Shown: piece after piece, positions 51,327-61,063 of the stretch
Layout of the letters: the number at the start of each line of letters is the position of its first letter
How positions within the stretch are numbered: the first letter of the stretch is position 1
NCBI RefSeq assembly: GCF_029537235.1
Contig: NZ_CP120638.1
Coordinates: forward strand, 3,784,501-3,848,500
Origin: Rhizobium sp. 32-5/1
Lineage (GTDB): Bacteria > Pseudomonadota > Alphaproteobacteria > Rhizobiales > Rhizobiaceae
DNA: 64,000 nt
Direction: 5' to 3'
Position numbers and translations under genes: made by a program
The notes under the pieces: generated by a model
What the model was told of the DNA's origin: nothing
The model's database searches: none
What the model saw: only the letters and a program-made list of their open reading frames with translations

Positions 51327-52914
51327 CAGGCGTCGAGCCAGACGCGCGTCGCGACATAGCCGTTCGACATATCGTTGCCGATATCGTGCACGTAGCCCTT
51401 CACCGCCTTGGTCGAGGCATTCACGAAGTCGTTGAACATCGGCAGGATCAGGCCGCCTTCATCGCGAACCGTCATCGCCATGGTGCGGTACATTTCCTTG
51501 CGCTTGGCTTCGTCCAGTTCGGAGCGGGCCTCGAGCAGGATCTTGTCGAAGTCGGGACGCAGGAAGCGCGTGTCGTTCCAGTCGGCGCTCGACAGGTAGG
51601 CTGTCGAATACATCTGGTCCTGCGTCGGGCGACCGCCCCAGTAGGACGTTGAGAAGGGCTGGACGTTCCAGACATTCGACCAGTAGCCGTCGCCCGGTTC
51701 GCGCTTCACTTCAACCTCGATACCGGCCTTCTTGGCGCTGTCCTGGTAAAGGACGGCGGCATCGACGGCGCCCGGGAAGGCGACGTCGGAGGTGCGTAGC
51801 AGGACCGGGCCGCTATGACCGGACTTCTTGTAATGGAAGGCTGCCTTGTCCGGATCGTAGGCCCGCTGTTCGATGCCTTCCGGGAAGAGGGCATAGGTTT
51901 CGTTGATCGGGAAGTCGTTGCCGACCTTGCCATAGCCGCCGAGAATGGTCTTCACCATGTTCTCGCGATCCATCGCATACTTCAATGCCAGGCGCAGGTC
52001 GTTGTTGTCGAACGGCGCCGTGTTGCAGTGCATGATGAAGACGTAGTGGCCGCGACCGGATGTCGACAGGATTTCGACGTTCGGCGCGCGCTTCAAAGGT
52101 TGACCGTCTTCGGGTCGACGCGGTTGATGTAGTGCACCTGGCCGGAAGAAAGTGCGGCGATGCGCGCCGTGGCATCGTTCATGTTGATGATTTCGATCGA
52201 GTCGACGAAGCCGCGATCCGTGCGCCAGTCGTCAGCGTTCTTCTCCAGCGTTGCGCGCACGCCGGGCTCGAAGCTCGAAAGCTTGTAGGGGCCCGTGCCG
52301 ATGCCTGCGCCCGGATTGTCATAGCCGCCGCCCGGCTGGATGACGAGGTGGTAGTCGGTGAGCAGGAGCGGCAGGTCGGCATTGCCTTCGGTCAGGACGA
52401 GAACGAGGTCTTCGCCGTCAGCCTTGATTTCCTTGATCGACTTCATGACGCCGAGCGCGCCGGATTCGGACTTTTCGTCCGTGTGGCGCTGCAGGGTCTT
52501 GACGACGTCGTCGATCGTCAGGTCCTTGCCGTCGTGGAACTTGACGCCCTTGCGGATCTTGAAGGTCCAGGTCGCAGCGTCGGCCGACGGTGCCCAGGAC
52601 TCGGCAAGCGCCGGAACCGGCAGTCCGGTCAGGGGCTCGGATTCGACAAGCATGTCGCCCCAGCAACGACCGATGCAGAACATGACCTGCGACAGGAATT
52701 TCGCCGGATCGTTTGAATCGGTGGCGGAGCCTCCTTCGAGACCAAGCTTGAGCGCGCCGCCGCGCTTGGGCTCCTGCGCCTGCGCGCTGGTCGCAAACAG
52801 AGTGCCTGCGGTCGAAAGTGCTACGCCGGCCGCCATTGCGCGGCCCATGAATTCGCGGCGGTTCATCTTGCCGAGCATGACCTGCCTGGCGAGGTAGTTC
52901 GTGTAATCGCTCAT
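51326..52914 (-). CDS. Peptide-type ABC substrate-binding protein (family 5; one frameshift)
   Basis: Joined frames give 529 residues. A twin-arginine-like signal (NRREFMGRAMAAGVALSTAG, about 18-37) is followed by the family 5 pattern (WTFKIRKGVKFHDGKDLTIDDVVKTLQRH, GTGPYKL). The break is at 52095-52097 (AAA; T in coding sense); one more gives VDPKTVNLLKRAPNVEIL. First gene of the transporter operon and 294 bases downstream of caiD on the same strand. The substrate could be a peptide, but its place beside the carnitine genes allows a betaine or acyl-amine. Confidence 0.85.
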
Positions 52915-53208: not shown

Positions 53209-54000
53209 CTATCTTCCTTTCCACACAGGATCGCGTTTTTCCGCAAATGCACGAGCGCCTTCCAGCTGGTCCTCGCTCGAATAGAGGATATCCACGGTCT
53301 TGAATTGCCGCTTGGTGATCTTGTTCATCGTCGTCTGGAAGTCTTCGCCTTCAGCAGCACGGACCACTTCCTTGATCGCCGCATAGACGAGCGGTGGGCC
53401 GCTTTCGAGCAGGCGGGCTAGTTCCCAAGCACGCTCCATCAGCTTGCCTGCCGATATGATTTCGTTGACGAAGCCCCAGCGGTTTGCCTCCGTCGCATCC
53501 AGCCAACGGCCGGTGAACAGCATGTCCATGGCGATGTGATAGGGGATGCGCTTGGGCAGCTTGATCGAGGCGGCATCGGCGACCGTGCCGGAACGGATTT
53601 CCGGCAGCGCGAAGGTTGCGTGCTCGGCGGCCAGGATCATGTCGGCGGACAGCGCGATTTCCAGTCCGCCGCCGCAGCAGATGCCGTTAATGGCGGCGAT
53701 CACAGGCTTGTTGAGGTCACGCAGTTCCTGCAGGCCGCCGAAGCCACCAATGCCGTAGTCGCCGTCGACCGCATCGCCGCCGGCCGCCGCCTTCAGGTCC
53801 CATCCCGGACAGAAGAATTTTTCGCCCGCACCGGTGATAATGGCGACACGCAATGTCTCGTCGTCGCGAAAGTCGGCAAAGATCTCGCCCATGATCCTAG
53901 ATGTCACCAGGTCGATGGCATTCGCCTTCGGTCGGTCGATGGTGACCTCGAGAATGCCACCTTCGCGGCGGGTGCGGAGTGGTCCGGTCATAGGCTTCAT
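53209..54000 (-). CDS. caiD: Carnitinyl-CoA dehydratase (CaiD-like)
   Basis: A 263-residue crotonase-fold enzyme very like E. coli CaiD: LEVTIDRPKANAID, RVAIITGAGEKFFCPGWDLKAAA and an end AFAEKRDPVWKGR. The two catalytic glutamates are Glu114 (GGGLEIALSAD) and Glu134 (FALPEIRSG), at the CaiD positions. It interconverts crotonobetainyl-CoA and L-carnitinyl-CoA. Its start overlaps the stop of the NDP-forming ligase gene, with which it is coupled. A role in gamma-butyrobetaine oxidation is inferred from neighbours. Confidence 0.87.
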   Translation of the reverse strand: MKPMTGPLRTRREGGILEVTIDRPKANAIDLVTSRIMGEIFADFRDDETLRVAIITGAGEKFFCPGWDLKAAAGGDAVDGDYGIGGFGGLQELRDLNKPVIAAINGICCGGGLEIALSADMILAAEHATFALPEIRSGTVADAASIKLPKRIPYHIAMDMLFTGRWLDATEANRWGFVNEIISAGKLMERAWELARLLESGPPLVYAAIKEVVRAAEGEDFQTTMNKITKRQFKTVDILYSSEDQLEGARAFAEKRDPVWKGR

Positions 54001-56051
54001 TTCCTCCGACGGATCAGGGCATCGACAGCCAAGGTTCCAGAACCTTGCGGCAAAACCATGATAGGATTGATATCGAGTTCGATCAGCTTTGCGGCGTCCG
54101 ATGCGACATAGGATGCGACAGCAGCGACAGCGGCCACGAGCGCTTCGACATCGCCTTTCGGGCTGCCGCGATAGCCGTCGAGCAGTTTCTTGATTTTCAA
54201 GCCGGATATGGCCTCGCGTATGGCATCTTCCGATGTCGGAAGCGTCAAAACGATGGAATCATCGAGCAATTCGACCAGAATTCCCCCGGCGCCGATGGTC
54301 AGCACAGGCCCCGCGACCGGATCGCGCAGCGCGCCGACGATGATTTCCGCGACCGCTTTTCCGATCATTTTTTCGACGAGATAACCGGAAGCAACGGCGG
54401 CCATGCCTTCTGCCGCTTCAAGAACCGCGTCCCGGCTGGCGAGATTGAGTTTTACGGCGCCTGCCTCGGTCTTGTGCGCGACGCCCAGGCCCTTGAGGAC
54501 GACCGGGAAACCAAGCGTTTCGGCAGCGTCAGCAGCGTCAGCCGCCGTAGCGGCCGTGCGCCCATCCGGCACAGAGAGGCCAAAGCCGGCCAGCATCTGC
54601 TTTGCCTCATGCTCCGAGAGCGTAACGATCTCGCCGTCGTCGGCTGCTGTTTTCAGGAGCGGTTCCGGGGCGGGTTTTGCCCAGGCCTTGCCGATGGTGG
54701 CCGAGCTTTCGGCCGCCGCCAGGGCTTCGTCGATGCCGTAAAAGGGCACAACGCCATCAATCATCAGCGAGAGTGCCGTCGCCTCCGGCATGTTTTCGCC
54801 CAGGCTGGCAACGATGCCGGCAACGGCGCCGGTCGCACGCGAGGCGGCGATCACGGCGTCGCAGGTGGTCACCCAGTCGGTGGCATCGCAGCGATCCTGC
54901 CGGGGAAAGTCGAGAATGATGAGGTTCAGCGCGTAATCGCCCTTCATCATGGCCGTGAATGCGGTCGTCTGCTTGTCGCGATTGCCCCAGACGAAGGTAT
55001 GGTAGTCAAGCGGGTTGGCGATCGTCACCATCTCGCCGAGGCTTTCGCGCAGCGGCTGGCGCTGCTCGTCCTTGAGCGCCCGGAACACGGTCTTGCGCTT
55101 GACGCCGGCATCGGCCATCAGCGACGCCTCGCCGCCGGAACAGCTCATGGAGGAGATATCGAAGGTCGCAAGCGGCGGGTGCAGATGCAGCAGTTTCAGC
55201 GTCTCGAGCAGTTCCGGCAGCGTGTTCACACGTCCGATGCCGAGCCGTTCGAGCAGCGCCGAGGAGACGGCGTCATTGCCGGCCAGCGAAGCCGTGTGCG
55301 AGACGGTCGCCAGTTGTGCTGCTTCCGACTTGCCGACCTTCAAGGTCACGACCGGCTTTTTCAGGTCGCGTGCGCGCGTCGCCAGCCGCTCCAGTGCCTC
55401 GATGCTGTCGAAACCCTCTATGTGCAGGCCGACAGCGGTCACGCGGGGGTCTTCGAGTGCGGCGATGGCGAGTTCTGAAAGGCCTGTTTGGGCCTGGTTT
55501 CCGGCCGTCATGATATAGGCGAGCGGCAGCCCGCGCATCTGCATCGAGACGTTGCAGGCGATGTTGGACGACTGGGTGAGGACCGCGACGCCGCGCTCGA
55601 CGCGCTGCATTCCATGCTGGTCCGGCCAGAGCAGGGCGCCGTCGAGCATGTTGATGAAGCCGTAGCAATTGGGACCGACGATTGCCATGTCGCCGGCCGC
55701 CGCAACCAGCGCGTCCTGCAGGTCGCTGCCATCGGAGAGTTCGCTCACAGCCTCGCGGAAACCCGATGCGTAGCAGACGGCGCCGCCTGCCTTGCGGGCC
55801 GACAGGTTACGGATGATCTCGATGGTCAGCGCCCGGTTGACACCGACAAAGGAGGCATCCGGCGAGCCGGGAAGCTCGGCGACGGAATGATAGCACTTGC
55901 GCCCGAGGATCTCGTCGTTCTTCGGATCGACCGGCCAGATCTCGCCGGTGAACCCCATTTTGTCGCACTGCTCGATGACCCGCCGCGCTTCCTTGCCGCC
56001 GAAGACGGCGATGGATCTGGGGCGGATGAGGCGGGAGAGGTCGCGGGTCAT
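53997..56051 (-). CDS. NDP-forming acyl-CoA ligase, fused subunits (acetate-CoA ligase family)
   Basis: A 684-residue protein of the ADP-forming acyl-CoA synthetase family. The N-terminal CoA-binding Rossmann part starts LSRLIRPRSIAVFGGKEARR; succinyl-CoA synthetase-like parts follow, with the phospho-His loop VSHTASLAGNDAV. A C-terminal ATP-grasp domain has GFPVVLKGLGVAHKTEAGAVKLNL. It makes acyl-CoA from acid, CoA and ATP with ADP and phosphate as products, reversibly. Between caiD and an acyl-CoA dehydrogenase, the likely substrate is gamma-butyrobetaine, crotonobetaine or carnitine (inference). E. coli uses an unrelated AMP-forming ligase, CaiC. Stop of the upstream gene lies 1 base before. 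Confidence 0.87.
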   Translation of the reverse strand: MTRDLSRLIRPRSIAVFGGKEARRVIEQCDKMGFTGEIWPVDPKNDEILGRKCYHSVAELPGSPDASFVGVNRALTIEIIRNLSARKAGGAVCYASGFREAVSELSDGSDLQDALVAAAGDMAIVGPNCYGFINMLDGALLWPDQHGMQRVERGVAVLTQSSNIACNVSMQMRGLPLAYIMTAGNQAQTGLSELAIAALEDPRVTAVGLHIEGFDSIEALERLATRARDLKKPVVTLKVGKSEAAQLATVSHTASLAGNDAVSSALLERLGIGRVNTLPELLETLKLLHLHPPLATFDISSMSCSGGEASLMADAGVKRKTVFRALKDEQRQPLRESLGEMVTIANPLDYHTFVWGNRDKQTTAFTAMMKGDYALNLIILDFPRQDRCDATDWVTTCDAVIAASRATGAVAGIVASLGENMPEATALSLMIDGVVPFYGIDEALAAAESSATIGKAWAKPAPEPLLKTAADDGEIVTLSEHEAKQMLAGFGLSVPDGRTAATAADAADAAETLGFPVVLKGLGVAHKTEAGAVKLNLASRDAVLEAAEGMAAVASGYLVEKMIGKAVAEIIVGALRDPVAGPVLTIGAGGILVELLDDSIVLTLPTSEDAIREAISGLKIKKLLDGYRGSPKGDVEALVAAVAAVASYVASDAAKLIELDINPIMVLPQGSGTLAVDALIRRRK

Positions 56052-56052
56052 T

Positions 56053-57213
56053 CTAGGCCCCCAGCGGCCGCAAGAGATCGCGGCTGATGATGTGGCGCTG
56101 GATTTCCGACGTGCCGTCCCAGATGCGCTCGACGCGGGCGTCGCGCCAGAAGCGGGCAAGCGGCAGGTCGTCCATCAGCCCCATGCCGCCATAGATCTGG
56201 ATTGCTTCGTCGGTGACGCGGGCGAGCATTTCGGATGCGTAGAGCTTGGCCGAGGCGATCTCGCGGTTGGCCGGCAGTTTCTGGTCGAGCCGCCAGGCGG
56301 CGGCCAGCGTCAGATAATCGGCGGCATCGATCTCGGTGATCATGTCGGCAAGCTTGAACGACACGCCCTGGTTGGCACCTATCGGCTTGCCGAACTGCTT
56401 GCGCTCGGCGGCATAGGGAAGCGCATAATCGAATACCCGTCGGGCGCGACCGACACAGGTGGCGGCAACGGTGATGCGAGTCGCGTAGAGCCAGTCATTG
56501 GCGATGTCGAAGCCCTTGTGCACTTCGCCGAGAATGGCCGAGGAGGGCAGGCGGCAATCGTCGAAACTGAGGATGCAGTTCTTGTAGCCACGATGGGACA
56601 CACTGTCATAGCCGTTGCGGATTTCGAAGCCCGGCGTGCCGCGATCGACGAGGAAACAGGTGATCTTCTTCTTCGGGCCGCGCGGTGTCTCTTCCTCGCT
56701 GGTGGCGATGAAGACGATGACGAAATCGGCGATGTTGGCATGCGAAATGAAATGCTTGGTGCCGTTGACGATCCAGTCGTCGCCGTCTGGCTTGGCAAAA
56801 CACTTCATGCCGCGCACGTCGGAGCCGGCATCCGGCTCGGTCATGGCGAGCGCATCGAACTTCTCGCCCTTGACGGCGGGGATCAGGTATTTCTCGCGCT
56901 GCTCGTCATTGCAGGCCATCAGGATGCCAGAAGGGCGACCGAAGAAGACGGTGAGGCCCATGGAGCCGCGGCCAAGCTCGCGTTCGACCAGCGTGAACGT
57001 CTGGTGATCAAGCCCGGCGCCGCCGACCTCTTCGGGCATGTTGCAGGCAAAGAAGCCGAGATCCTTGCACTTTCGCGTGATCTCCTGGCCGAGCTCCTTC
57101 GGCACGATGCCGGTGCGCTCGACCTCGTTTTCATGCGGATAGATTTCGGTCTCGACGAAGCCGCGCACGGTCTCGACGATCATCTGCTGTTCTTCGGTCA
57201 GTGCGAAATCCAT
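56053..57213 (-). CDS. Acyl-CoA dehydrogenase, probable gamma-butyrobetainyl-CoA dehydrogenase
   Basis: A 386-residue FAD acyl-CoA dehydrogenase (MDFALTEEQQ start, MTEPDAGSDVRG, YGGMGLMDDLPLARFWRDARVERIWDGTSEIQR). The residue at the usual catalytic Glu position (YEGT) is Asp366 in WDGT; the alternative isovaleryl-type Glu site reads ERKQFG, without Glu there. So Asp366 is the likely base, as in some other subgroups. The neighbours suggest it oxidises gamma-butyrobetainyl-CoA to crotonobetainyl-CoA. First gene of the transcript with the ligase and caiD; a palindromic repeat lies just upstream. Confidence 0.85.
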   Translation of the reverse strand: MDFALTEEQQMIVETVRGFVETEIYPHENEVERTGIVPKELGQEITRKCKDLGFFACNMPEEVGGAGLDHQTFTLVERELGRGSMGLTVFFGRPSGILMACNDEQREKYLIPAVKGEKFDALAMTEPDAGSDVRGMKCFAKPDGDDWIVNGTKHFISHANIADFVIVFIATSEEETPRGPKKKITCFLVDRGTPGFEIRNGYDSVSHRGYKNCILSFDDCRLPSSAILGEVHKGFDIANDWLYATRITVAATCVGRARRVFDYALPYAAERKQFGKPIGANQGVSFKLADMITEIDAADYLTLAAAWRLDQKLPANREIASAKLYASEMLARVTDEAIQIYGGMGLMDDLPLARFWRDARVERIWDGTSEIQRHIISRDLLRPLGA

Positions 57214-57255
57214 CTTACATTCCTCCATATCGTTCCGTGGGTGCGCCTTTGGCGT

Positions 57256-57383
57256 TACCCCTCTGTCCCTTTCGGGACATCTCCCCCTCAAGGGGGAGAT
57301 TGTTCTCTAGCTTCGTGCCCCAAAAGCTGGCGGCTGATCTCCCCCTTGAGGGGGAGATGTCGGCGTAGCCGACTGAGGGGGTA
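57256..57383. repeat. Palindromic intergenic repeat, type 2 (copy G)
   Basis: Inverted ends TACCCCTCTGTCCCTTTCGG and the counterpart finishing CTGAGGGGGTA, both containing ATCTCCCCCTTGAGGGGGAG palindromes. Between the carnitine dehydrogenase stop and the acyl-CoA dehydrogenase start. Confidence 0.87.
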
Positions 57384-57404
57384 GGCGTCCACGAACTCTG
57401 TCGA

Positions 57405-58895
57405 TTACCGCTTCTGCCCCACGCTCCGCCCTACACCCTCGGGCTTCAGCAATCCCGCATACGCCTCCGCAATCGCCGTCACCTTGGCAATCACCTCCGG
57501 CAGGGCTGGCACGGCCTTGCTCGCCTTACTGTCCACATGCAGCAGCATCTGCTCCGCCGTCGCCACCGGCTCGTTGCTTGCCGCATTGTAGATCGTCGAG
57601 AAAATGTGCAGGCGTTTTTCGTCGTAGGACAGAATCTGGCAGGTCGAGTACAGCGCGTTACCGAGCTTGGCTTCGCCCAAGTTCCGGATATGAGTCTCGA
57701 CCGTGTAGTAGCTGTGGCCCTTCTTGACGTAGTCGAGATCGACGCCGATCAGGCGCAGGAGGCCATCCGAGGTGTCGCCGAAGACCTGCAGGTAGCGGTG
57801 CTCCGTCATATGGCCGTTGTAGTCGACCCAGGCGGCGTTGACCTTGGTGTCGAGGATGCGGATCGGCTCGGCATTGCCCAGATCGGTCTGCGGCTTTTCA
57901 GCGTTTGCCCACAGGCTCTGCTCGAAATCGGCTAGCAGCTTGCCGGCACCCCAGCCCTTGCCGCCATCGCCGCTCTTCAGCGCGTGCATGATGCCGACGA
58001 GGTTTTCGTCGCGGATGCGCTCCAGATCGCGGATACCGCGCGCGCCGGACTGGGCGTCGGACTGGGCGGCGATCTTGTCGACAAGTTCGTCATCGAGATC
58101 AACCACGTCCATCAGCTTGGTCCAGGGCCAGGAGAGGCAGGGGCCGAACTGGGCGAGGAAGTGGCGCATGCCGGCTTCGCCGCCGGCGATGCGGTAGGTC
58201 TCGAACATGCCCATCTGCGCCCAGCGCATGCCGAAGGAATAACGGATCACGTCATCGAGCGTCTCGGTGTCGCAGATATCGTCCTTGATCAGCCACAGGC
58301 CTTCGCGCCAGACGGCTTCAAGGAGGCGGTCGCCGACGAAGGCCTCGATCTCCTTGTTGATGATCACGCCCTTCATGCCGATCGGCGCGAGCTTGGCCTT
58401 GGCCTCTTCCAGCGTGGATTTCGCCGTCTTTTCGCCGCCGACGAGTTCGGCGAGCGGAAGGAGGTAGACCGGATTGTAGGGATGGGCGACGAACATGCGC
58501 TCGGGATGCTTCATGTCGCGCTGCAGGTCCGTCGGCATGATGCCTGATGTGGACGAGCCGATCAGAGCCTTCGGGTCGGCTGCCGCATCGATCTGGGTGA
58601 TGACGTTGCGCTTCAGGTCGACCCGCTCGGGCACGCTTTCCTGAATCCAGTCAGCGCCTTGCACGGCCTCTTCAACGCTCTTGACGAAGGTGAGCTTGCC
58701 CTTCGGCGGCAGCGGCGCCATGGTCAGCATGGCATAGGCGCGCTCGGCATTCGCCAGCACCTCGCCGACGATGCGGGTCGCTTCGGGGTGCGGATCGAAC
58801 ATATTGACGTCGATGCCGGCCAGCAGGAAACGCGCCGCCCAGGCCCCGCCGATGACGCCGCCGCCGATGCAGGCCGCCTTGGTGATTTTGGTCAT
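57405..58895 (-). CDS. L-carnitine dehydrogenase fused to betainyl-CoA thioesterase
   Basis: A 496-residue fusion. Residues about 1-325 are a 3-hydroxyacyl-CoA dehydrogenase-like oxidoreductase: Rossmann motif GGGVIGGAWA at 11-20, FVAHPYNPVYLLPL with the catalytic His, and FGMRWAQMGMFETYRIAGGEAGM. Residues about 345-490 are a hot-dog thioesterase with DYNGHMTEHRYLQVF. The first part oxidises L-carnitine to 3-dehydrocarnitine with NAD; the second hydrolyses betainyl-CoA, the product of the BKACE, to glycine betaine. Fused forms are known from Sinorhizobium meliloti. The fusion places the first and last steps of the route in one protein. Confidence 0.9.
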   Translation of the reverse strand: MTKITKAACIGGGVIGGAWAARFLLAGIDVNMFDPHPEATRIVGEVLANAERAYAMLTMAPLPPKGKLTFVKSVEEAVQGADWIQESVPERVDLKRNVITQIDAAADPKALIGSSTSGIMPTDLQRDMKHPERMFVAHPYNPVYLLPLAELVGGEKTAKSTLEEAKAKLAPIGMKGVIINKEIEAFVGDRLLEAVWREGLWLIKDDICDTETLDDVIRYSFGMRWAQMGMFETYRIAGGEAGMRHFLAQFGPCLSWPWTKLMDVVDLDDELVDKIAAQSDAQSGARGIRDLERIRDENLVGIMHALKSGDGGKGWGAGKLLADFEQSLWANAEKPQTDLGNAEPIRILDTKVNAAWVDYNGHMTEHRYLQVFGDTSDGLLRLIGVDLDYVKKGHSYYTVETHIRNLGEAKLGNALYSTCQILSYDEKRLHIFSTIYNAASNEPVATAEQMLLHVDSKASKAVPALPEVIAKVTAIAEAYAGLLKPEGVGRSVGQKR

Positions 58896-58920
58896 GATCG
58901 TTCACCCTTAAGTTTTGTAA

Positions 58921-59077
58921 GACCCCGCCCCAAACCCCTCCCCACAAGGGGAGGGGCTTAACCTGCCGCTCCGATGTCAATCCATCTCGACATCTCAGCT
59001 TGCAGTGCGCTCGACGGGGAGCGCGGGCAGTGCTAAGCGTTAAGCCCTCCCCCTTGTGGGGAGGGTGGGGAGGGGTT
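58921..59077. repeat. Palindromic intergenic repeat, type 1 (copy C)
   Basis: Inverted ends GACCCCGCCCCAAACCCCTC (continuing CCCACAAGGGGAGGGG) and CCCTCCCCCTTGTGGGGAGG (continuing GTGGGGAGGGG). Between the BKACE and carnitine dehydrogenase genes. Confidence 0.85.
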
Positions 59078-59080
59078 TTC

Positions 59081-59983
59081 TCAGCGCTTCACCAGCTTCA
59101 GCTTCTCACGCACCGCAGCCGGTCCGATGATCCTGGCACCCATGCCCTCAATGACGCCGACTGCTTTTTCGACAAGCTGTGCATTGGTGGCGAGCTGGCC
59201 TTTGCCGACATAGAGATTGTCCTCCAGCCCGACGCGGACATTGCCGCCGGCAAGCACGGCCGCTGCCGGATAGGCGAGCGCGTTGCGGCCGATGGAGAAG
59301 GCGGAGAAGGTCCAGTTGGCCGGCACGTTGTTGACCATCGCCATGAAGGTATTGAGGTCATCAGGTGCGCCCCACGGAATGCCCATGCAGAGCTGGATGA
59401 GAACCGGATCCTCGATCAGGCCTTCCTCGACCAGTTGCTTGGCGAACCAGAGATGGCCGGTGTCGAAGGCTTCGATTTCCGGGCGAACGCCGAGTTCGGT
59501 CATCATCTTGGCCATGGCGCGCAGCATCGACGGGGTGTTGGTCATCACGTAGTCGCCGAGCGAAAAGTTCATCGTGCCGCAGTCGAGCGTGCAGATTTCC
59601 GGCAGGCATTCTGCCACATGCGAAACGCGCTCCGTGGCGCCGGCCATATCGGTGCCGTTGGGGTTGAGCGGCAGCGGGCTCTCGACGTTTCCGAAAATCA
59701 TGTCGCCGCCCATGCCGGCCGTGAGGTTGAGCACGACATCGACATCCGCCGAGCGGATGAGGTCGGTGACTTCCTTGTAGAGATCGTTGCGGCGGCTGGG
59801 GGCGCCGGTATCGGGATCGCGCACATGGCAGTGTACGATGGCCGCACCGGCCTTGGCGGCGTCGATGGCCGAGGCGGCAATCTCTTTCGGCGACCGCGGC
59901 ACGTGCGGCGATTTGCCGGCGGTGTCGCCGGAGCCGGTGACGGCACAGGTGATGAAAACGTCGCGATTCATGCTGAGCGGCAT
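59081..59983 (-). CDS. Beta-keto acid cleavage enzyme (BKACE/DUF849), dehydrocarnitine type
   Basis: A 300-residue TIM-barrel zinc enzyme. HCHVRDPDTGAPSRR carries the metal-binding histidines; NLTAGMGGDMIFGN, NFSLGDYVMTNTP and LCMGIPWGAPDDLNTFMAMV are typical of the BKACE family. The reaction is 3-dehydrocarnitine plus acetyl-CoA giving betainyl-CoA and acetoacetate. Its place next to the carnitine dehydrogenase-thioesterase fusion and an AraC regulator matches the S. meliloti and Pseudomonas carnitine loci. Divergent from the regulator gene. Confidence 0.88.
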   Translation of the reverse strand: MPLSMNRDVFITCAVTGSGDTAGKSPHVPRSPKEIAASAIDAAKAGAAIVHCHVRDPDTGAPSRRNDLYKEVTDLIRSADVDVVLNLTAGMGGDMIFGNVESPLPLNPNGTDMAGATERVSHVAECLPEICTLDCGTMNFSLGDYVMTNTPSMLRAMAKMMTELGVRPEIEAFDTGHLWFAKQLVEEGLIEDPVLIQLCMGIPWGAPDDLNTFMAMVNNVPANWTFSAFSIGRNALAYPAAAVLAGGNVRVGLEDNLYVGKGQLATNAQLVEKAVGVIEGMGARIIGPAAVREKLKLVKR

Positions 59984-60091
59984 GGATGTCTCCCTTGTTC
60001 TTGGGGTACATTACGAGCCAAGATCCGATCGGCTGCTTTGCATTTTCAGTTTTATACTATACATTTTCGGCATTCAGATGGAGAGTTTGAC

Positions 60092-61063
60092 TTGCTTGTA
60101 CCGCGCGAAGACACCCAGCATCTCGACGTGCTGCTGCTGCCGGAGACAAACCTCATCCTTGTCGCCTCCGTGGTCGAGCCGCTCAGGGCCGCAAATCGGA
60201 TCGCCGGGCGCACGCTCTACACCTGGACTTTCTTCAGCCCGGACGGCCAACCGATCGAGACGAAGAGCGGCATTCCAATCCCGGTTAGCGGCGCCTTCAA
60301 GCCGCAGAAGGAGACCGATCCGCTGTTCGTCCTGTCGAGTTATAACTGGCGGGTCCATACGAGCGCGCATTTGCGTATGCAGCTTTCGCAGACGGCGCGG
60401 CATCGGAGCCTGATGGCGGGGATAGAGGCGGGGGCGTGGATTTTGGCCGAGACCAGCCTGCTCGACAATGTTTCGGCGACGAACCATTGGGAAGATTTCG
60501 AAGATTTCGCCGCTGCCTATCCGCAGATCACCATGGTGCGCGAGCGTTTCGTCATCGACGGCAAGCGCATCACCACGGGTGGTTCCCTGCCGACGCTCGA
60601 CCTGATGCTCGAACTGATCCGCCGCCAGCACAGCTATTCGCTGGCGCTCGAAGTCTCGCGCCTGTTCATCTACGAGCAGGAGCGCACCCGCGGCGACCTC
60701 CTGCAAGTGCCCGCCATCGGCAATATGCGCATCCTCGATGCGCGGGTGGGGGCTGCCGTCAAGCTGATGGAGGAAACCGTCGAGGCTCCGCTGACGCTGG
60801 CAAAACTGGCGCGTCGCATCGGTGTCGGCGCCCGCCACCTGCAGGATCTTTTCCGCGAAACGATGGGTGTTGCTCCGCATCAACATTATCTGGCGCTGCG
60901 GCTGAACGCGGCACGGCGCAAGGTCATCGAGACGCGCGCGGATTTTGCCGAGATCGCCGCCATCACCGGCTTCAATTCGTCCTCGGCCTTTTCCCGCAGC
61001 TACCGCGCCCATTACCGCGAGAGCCCGAGCGAGACGCGCAAGAGGCTGAAGCTGAAACTCTGA
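60092..61063 (+). CDS. GlxA/AraC-family regulator (CdhR-like)
   Basis: A 323-residue regulator. The N-terminal DJ-1/PfpI-like domain (about 1-190) starts DVLLLPETNLILVASVVEPLRAANRI. The C-terminal AraC domain has LTLAKLARRIGVGARHLQDLFRETMGVAPHQHYLALRLNAARR and FAEIAAITGFNSSSAFSRSYRAHYRESPSETRK. The frame is open far upstream across BKACE, but the real start is best placed at the TTG at 60092, with GGAGAG 7 bases before and the conserved region just after. Divergent from BKACE; probably activates the carnitine genes as CdhR does in Pseudomonas. Confidence 0.85.
   Translation: MLVPREDTQHLDVLLLPETNLILVASVVEPLRAANRIAGRTLYTWTFFSPDGQPIETKSGIPIPVSGAFKPQKETDPLFVLSSYNWRVHTSAHLRMQLSQTARHRSLMAGIEAGAWILAETSLLDNVSATNHWEDFEDFAAAYPQITMVRERFVIDGKRITTGGSLPTLDLMLELIRRQHSYSLALEVSRLFIYEQERTRGDLLQVPAIGNMRILDARVGAAVKLMEETVEAPLTLAKLARRIGVGARHLQDLFRETMGVAPHQHYLALRLNAARRKVIETRADFAEIAAITGFNSSSAFSRSYRAHYRESPSETRKRLKLKL

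Follow-up and report, generated by a model that had tools for sequence, protein, structure and literature searches.

A probable bco-type gene set for aerobic gamma-butyrobetaine and carnitine use, with a putative NDP-forming gamma-butyrobetaine:CoA ligase, in Rhizobium sp. 32-5/1

How might a soil bacterium convert gamma-butyrobetaine into glycine betaine through coenzyme A (CoA) esters with neither the ligase CaiC nor the CoA transferase CaiB of Escherichia coli at hand, and has such an arrangement been described before? Both questions were raised by a sequence-only reading of positions 53209–61063 of a 64,000-nucleotide stretch of DNA from Rhizobium sp. 32-5/1, the whole of which is referred to here as the window. 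Our analysis makes it highly probable that the cluster in question is the rhizobial bco-type set for aerobic gamma-butyrobetaine and carnitine use, built around a nucleoside diphosphate (NDP)-forming acyl-CoA ligase, and the arrangement is very probably not new. The features concerned are the following.

53209–54000, minus strand: CaiD, crotonobetainyl-CoA hydratase, 263 amino acids, 54% identity to E. coli CaiD.
53997–56051, minus strand: one-chain NDP-forming acyl-CoA ligase, putative BcoAB-type gamma-butyrobetaine:CoA ligase, 684 amino acids, assigned from Pfam domains.
56053–57213, minus strand: acyl-CoA dehydrogenase, presumed to convert gamma-butyrobetainyl-CoA into crotonobetainyl-CoA, 386 amino acids, with N-terminal, middle and C-terminal acyl-CoA dehydrogenase domains.
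57405–58895, minus strand: carnitine 3-dehydrogenase fused to a 4HBT_2 thioesterase, 496 amino acids, assigned from NCBIfam NF005716.
59081–59983, minus strand: BKACE (3-keto-5-aminohexanoate cleavage family), presumed to convert dehydrocarnitine into betainyl-CoA, 300 amino acids, assigned from solved relatives of the family.
About 60092–61063, plus strand, divergent from the operon: GbdR/GlxA-like AraC-family regulator, for which the TTG start at 60092 is a guess.

All five enzyme genes announced by the sequence-only reading were found on the minus strand, where they are transcribed in the order BKACE, carnitine dehydrogenase-thioesterase, acyl-CoA dehydrogenase, ligase and CaiD. The interval that it had assigned to them does hold these genes, but its last part belongs to the divergent regulator. 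The ligase carries the domains CoA_binding_2, Succ_CoA_lig and ATP-grasp_5 and thus falls within the NDP-forming acyl-CoA ligase superfamily; its residues E212 and H252, the latter being the swinging-loop histidine, were kept in all 150 aligned sequences, and its own assembly contained one ligase match at E≤0.001. The fusion protein, composed of the domains 3HCDH_N, 3HCDH and 4HBT_2, scored 893 bits against the carnitine 3-dehydrogenase model NF005716, well above the cut-off of 592. CaiD has glutamates at E114 and E134, which we take to be the positions of the crotonase catalytic residues. The acyl-CoA dehydrogenase is 29% identical to E. coli CaiA, and at its position 366, presumably the catalytic base of the family, 57 of 104 aligned sequences including that of the window have Asp (as in the window) and 47 have Glu. 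The regulator reached 213 bits with the NCBIfam GbdR model, under the cut-off of 480.

With regard to the missing E. coli functions, no match to CaiB, CaiC or CaiT was obtained in the window at E≤1e-3, and the best matches to CaiB (31%) and CaiC (30%) in the genome of the strain (5.6 Mb, 87% complete) were both partial, in line with the earlier statement that CaiB and CaiC are missing here. The gamma-butyrobetaine dioxygenase family TIGR02409 had no match in this genome, and none in 14 control genomes either.

The same cluster is present in Sinorhizobium meliloti. In strain Ak57, a GlxA-family regulator is followed by a 3-keto-5-aminohexanoate cleavage protein, carnitine 3-dehydrogenase, acyl-CoA dehydrogenase, an unannotated stretch and caiD, after which come a solute-binding protein and then transporter genes. 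The unannotated stretch matches the window ligase in two frames (84% over 462 amino acids and 71% over 216 amino acids), so that an NDP-type ligase again lies between acyl-CoA dehydrogenase and caiD; the five non-ligase proteins share 76–90% identity with their S. meliloti counterparts, with values of 90% for the acyl-CoA dehydrogenase, 87% for BKACE, 82% for the regulator and 76% for the fusion. Regulator and gene order being the same, no substantive difference was seen between both clusters, apart from the two-frame match and missing annotation of the Ak57 ligase gene. A matching cluster also occurs in Neorhizobium petrolearium OS53, where the ligase is annotated as an acetate--CoA ligase family protein. 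Bazire and coworkers reportedly found, in 2019, the carnitine-making genes beside the degradation genes by means of gene context, and their abstract is said to describe the characterisation of five enzymes that together take gamma-butyrobetaine to glycine betaine in seven steps.

In published accounts, S. meliloti SM2011_c01638 is described as oxidising carnitine and converting betainyl-CoA to glycine betaine (a passage of PMC12482172, citing Bazire et al. 2019), S. meliloti BcoAB, a gamma-butyrobetaine:CoA ligase received as a gift from A. Perret, was used with ATP and CoA to produce gamma-butyrobetainyl-CoA from gamma-butyrobetaine (a passage of PMC8364193), and SMc01639 is listed as a putative acyl-CoA dehydrogenase (table in PMC12542648). 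Because of the locus, the gene order and the presence of no other ligase among the 14 annotated features of the S. meliloti stretch, we infer that BcoAB is the product of the orthologue of the window ligase. The SM2011_c and SMc numbers presumably correspond, which places SMc01639 next to the fusion gene. As for the Rhizobium-like strain HK4, a section of a 2007 review describes its production of carnitine from gamma-butyrobetaine along a pathway that parallels fatty acid degradation, and names no genes for it. A literature search pairing gamma-butyrobetaine with NDP-forming gave no match, and the portion of PMC5979481 consulted added nothing on the rhizobial CoA route. The sequence-only reading had known of no description of this arrangement, which is very probably wrong given the same S. 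meliloti cluster, the use made of BcoAB and the publication of the dual-function dehydrogenase; a new pathway was consequently rejected. In contrast, gene context, conservation and the S. meliloti literature give good support to its proposals of a route from gamma-butyrobetaine to glycine betaine and of an NDP-forming ligase in place of CaiC and CaiB.

The conservation survey that it had asked for was based on 199 genomes of the order, including that of the strain itself, 49 of which contained a ligase match at E≤1e-60. For co-location, we considered all 74 ligase places, the 29 places where a match spans both dehydrogenase and thioesterase, the top 20 of those with the dehydrogenase alone, and 65 BKACE places, the weaker BKACE places being omitted. 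Matches to both carnitine dehydrogenase and BKACE lay within 10 kb of 26 of the 34 close ligase places (E≤7e-164), and the clustering of the ligase with carnitine genes is therefore not due to chance. Among the named loci, the top 80 of 573 confirmed relatives by ligase similarity, 72 carry the five genes together on one strand, 71 of them in the order of the window and one (L109) rearranged. The others comprise four loci cut upstream by a contig end (L038, L044, L049 and L055), L094, also cut upstream and with no CaiD seen downstream, L088 and L098, in which neither carnitine dehydrogenase nor BKACE was seen, and L101, where BKACE is on the opposite strand and a close acyl-CoA dehydrogenase match is missing. 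The gene order is kept from Rhizobium and Sinorhizobium to Mesorhizobium and Roseovarius; in L078, a frame of 209 amino acids between BKACE and the dehydrogenase gave no family match.

These loci also bear on whether the genes form one coupled unit, as had been proposed. From the acyl-CoA dehydrogenase onward this held, since its junction with the ligase reads TAG-A-ATG (a 1-nucleotide gap) and ligase and caiD overlap by 4 nucleotides in ATGA; further upstream, however, 191 nucleotides of intergenic DNA precede the acyl-CoA dehydrogenase and 185 separate BKACE from the fusion. In relatives, the same gaps are often short (≤30 nucleotides in 17 of 42 loci before the acyl-CoA dehydrogenase and in 27 of 71 between BKACE and the fusion, L109 being excluded from both counts), and a single operon from BKACE through caiD is therefore likely. 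Short repeats occur within 58896–59080 and 57214–57404, with copies near 9.1–9.3, 25.9–26.0, 31.0–31.2 and 40.5–40.6 kb of the window; the intergenic repeats look like later insertions into a single operon.

A further indication of the substrate class of the ligase came from DddX, an ATP-dependent dimethylsulfoniopropionate (DMSP) lyase, whose structure (PDB 7cm9) is the second-best sequence match to the ligase among solved structures. In a passage of PMC8163506, W391 and F435 of DddX are proposed, from docking and mutants, to hold the sulfonium of DMSP-CoA through cation-pi interactions, while H292 probably serves as the phosphohistidine and E432 is the best candidate for the base cleaving DMSP-CoA. 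In our alignment, with positions counted by hand, these residues correspond in the window ligase to W355 (W391), W393 (F435), H252 (H292) and A390 (E432). Tryptophan stands at position 355 in 109 of 110 close ligases, window included, and at position 393 in 103 of them, the rest having F (5) or R (2) at 393; in 18 ligases of less than 35% identity, two of which (L139 and L151) yielded no residues here, tryptophan occupies position 355 in 6 and position 393 in none. Since the named loci had been found with patterns including NP[LF]DYHT[FY], counts of Y350-H351-T352 in them are selected, W355 and W393 lying outside the patterns; a pattern-free check on 29 loci from other genomes gave W at 355 in all 29, and at 393 W in 24 and F in 5. 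At the position of A390, the 109 close relatives other than the window ligase have Glu in no case and Asp in 38. Judged from the alignment, the aromatic pair W355/W393 fits a ligase for onium compounds, and the missing DddX-type glutamate argues, less firmly, against cleavage. The alignment of W355/W393 with the DddX aromatic pair, together with the apparent absence of its cleaving glutamate, may be regarded as the new, if modest, part of this work. A DddX-type lyase was disfavoured as a candidate, owing to Ala at the position of the cleaving glutamate.

Modules of acyl-CoA dehydrogenase, ligase and CaiD were also observed in L156 (G198), L088 and L098, with no match to carnitine dehydrogenase or BKACE in the stretch; the L156 ligase is that of L020, and in L020–L024 position 393 is F rather than W.

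In the route that we propose, the NDP-forming ligase would join gamma-butyrobetaine to CoA via its phosphohistidine, the acyl-CoA dehydrogenase would oxidise gamma-butyrobetainyl-CoA to crotonobetainyl-CoA, and CaiD would hydrate the latter to carnitinyl-CoA, from which carnitine may be freed by the reversed ligase or by a thioesterase. Carnitine would then be oxidised by the fusion to dehydrocarnitine, BKACE would convert dehydrocarnitine and acetyl-CoA into betainyl-CoA and acetoacetate, and the thioesterase domain of the fusion would release glycine betaine from betainyl-CoA. All of the substrates are those that we infer for Rhizobium sp. 32-5/1, and the products given for BKACE are those that the chemistry of its family would predict.

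A number of points weigh against this assignment. Enzyme activities in Rhizobium sp. 32-5/1 are predicted from its genes, and eight of the 34 close ligase places have no carnitine genes within 10 kb. CaiD scored 317 bits against the NCBIfam crotonobetainyl-CoA hydratase model NF002936, under its cut-off of 500, and the acyl-CoA dehydrogenase scored 186 bits against the NCBIfam crotonobetainyl-CoA dehydrogenase model, under its cut-off of 540. As to the ligase, the pair W355/W393 comes from a sequence alignment in which a gap of four residues is crossed at W391 of DddX, and the contacts in DddX themselves derive from docking and mutants rather than from a ligand-bound structure (same passage of PMC8163506). 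Furthermore, the name BcoAB is given in that part of PMC8364193 without sequence or locus tag, so that its identity with the ligase gene is deduced, and a table of the 2007 review gives gamma-butyrobetaine hydroxylase, instead of a CoA route, as the activity of the Rhizobium-like HK strains.

The release of carnitine leaves room for alternatives. Recovery of ATP by reversal of the ligase would be chemically sound for the NDP-forming enzyme class. If five enzymes indeed perform seven steps, either one enzyme beyond the fusion does double duty or the fusion carries out three steps. A pathway with the same intermediates in which the ligase works forward only, carnitine being freed by a thioesterase (the domain of the fusion or another) with one ATP spent per turn, has in our estimate almost an even chance. 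A thioesterase domain does sit within the cluster, and, of the 73 named loci that match the dehydrogenase, 30 have it unfused, only three of these 30 having a thioesterase relative within the locus; the genomes of 10 of the 30 were tested, and all 10 have such a relative elsewhere. However, the fused thioesterase accompanies carnitine dehydrogenase and BKACE rather than the ligase: BKACE lies within 10 kb of all 29 places with a fused dehydrogenase-thioesterase, the ligase within 10 kb of only 12, and for 11 of the remaining 17 the whole genome lacks a ligase match at E≤1e-60. The fused thioesterase therefore probably serves chiefly betainyl-CoA, both roles being compatible. The ligase, running backwards, may free carnitine, and the net chemistry would then equal that of CaiB. 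On a bolder reading, which we hold to be somewhat less likely than not, one ligase would replace both CaiC and CaiB, loading gamma-butyrobetaine at the cost of ATP and unloading carnitinyl-CoA with recovery of ATP, with the onium groups held in the aromatic pair shared with DddX, and this five-enzyme logic would have been copied for another substrate in a paralogous cluster of related genomes.

It appears improbable that the ligase module has its main substrate in a different onium acid, such as crotonobetaine, delta-valerobetaine or DMSP, with carnitine entering only secondarily. DddX, the second-best solved relative, is a DMSP enzyme, crotonobetaine would feed the same CoA pool, modules without adjacent carnitine genes exist, and Asp, also an acid, occupies the position of the cleaving glutamate in those 38 of 109 close relatives; nevertheless, the glutamate itself is found in none of them, the tight link between ligase and carnitine dehydrogenase suits a four-carbon betaine, and S. 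meliloti BcoAB is in use as a gamma-butyrobetaine:CoA ligase in the PMC8364193 passage. Less credible still is the idea that the family names mislead and that the genes form an ordinary operon for short-chain fatty acids. The ligase, dehydrogenase and hydratase families are indeed broad and several curated cut-offs were missed, but the fusion exceeds its equivalog cut-off, CaiD shares more than half of its residues with the E. coli enzyme, and the gene order is conserved as far as Mesorhizobium and Roseovarius; the dehydrogenase equivalog score and the conserved order led us to reject it.

The paralogous set, exemplified by L154 (G068:C3:15000-34000) and L155 (G036:C59:46000-58082), has ligases 35–43% identical to that of the window, with the motif NPLDYTTPIW in 12 of 18 and W at position 355 in all 18. 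Of 19 such places, 13 have a BKACE match within 12 kb, and 10 have a 3-hydroxyacyl-CoA dehydrogenase as well. Also present in L154 are a hydratase resembling CaiD (50%), an acyl-CoA dehydrogenase (53%), a regulator weakly similar to GbdR (29%), a protein of CoA-transferase family III and an ABC transporter of the Pot type.

The bco-type assignment can be set against other known systems. The E. coli cai operon (CaiA–CaiE and CaiT) is alike in its CoA-level chemistry but differs in being an anaerobic biotransformation that employs the CaiC ligase and the CoA transferase CaiB, both unmatched in the window. CaiC is an adenosine monophosphate-forming ligase. In connection with the HK4 and HK13 strains, patents reportedly name bcoA/B, bcoC and bcoD. 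By description, HK4 and its derivative HK13 of the Lonza carnitine process grow aerobically on carnitine, HK13 being without carnitine dehydrogenase (section of the 2007 review). DddX shares with the window ligase the one-chain NDP-type superfamily, the phosphohistidine and the aligned aromatic pair, but then cleaves the CoA ester as well, probably via E432, where the window ligase has A390 (passage of PMC8163506). The bbu cluster of Emergencia timonensis likewise activates gamma-butyrobetaine to its CoA ester; it differs in being anaerobic, in using the CoA transferases BbuB and BbuC and in releasing trimethylamine (passage of PMC8364193).

Next to the cluster, a dipeptide-type ABC transporter lies 3' of caiD on the minus strand (window positions 52914–50215), likewise in S. 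meliloti, and its solute-binding protein is found 3' of the ligase in 38 of 45 loci (L031–L075). In the window, two overlapping frames (52914–52093 and 52096–51326) share the solute-binding protein between them, and one permease is divided in the same way (51326–50721 and 50823–50215); these splits are frameshifts or assembly errors.

Taken as the rhizobial bco-type set, the cluster illustrates how a soil bacterium may convert a betaine to glycine betaine, an osmoprotectant and nutrient, by a route that resembles the kind used industrially for L-carnitine.

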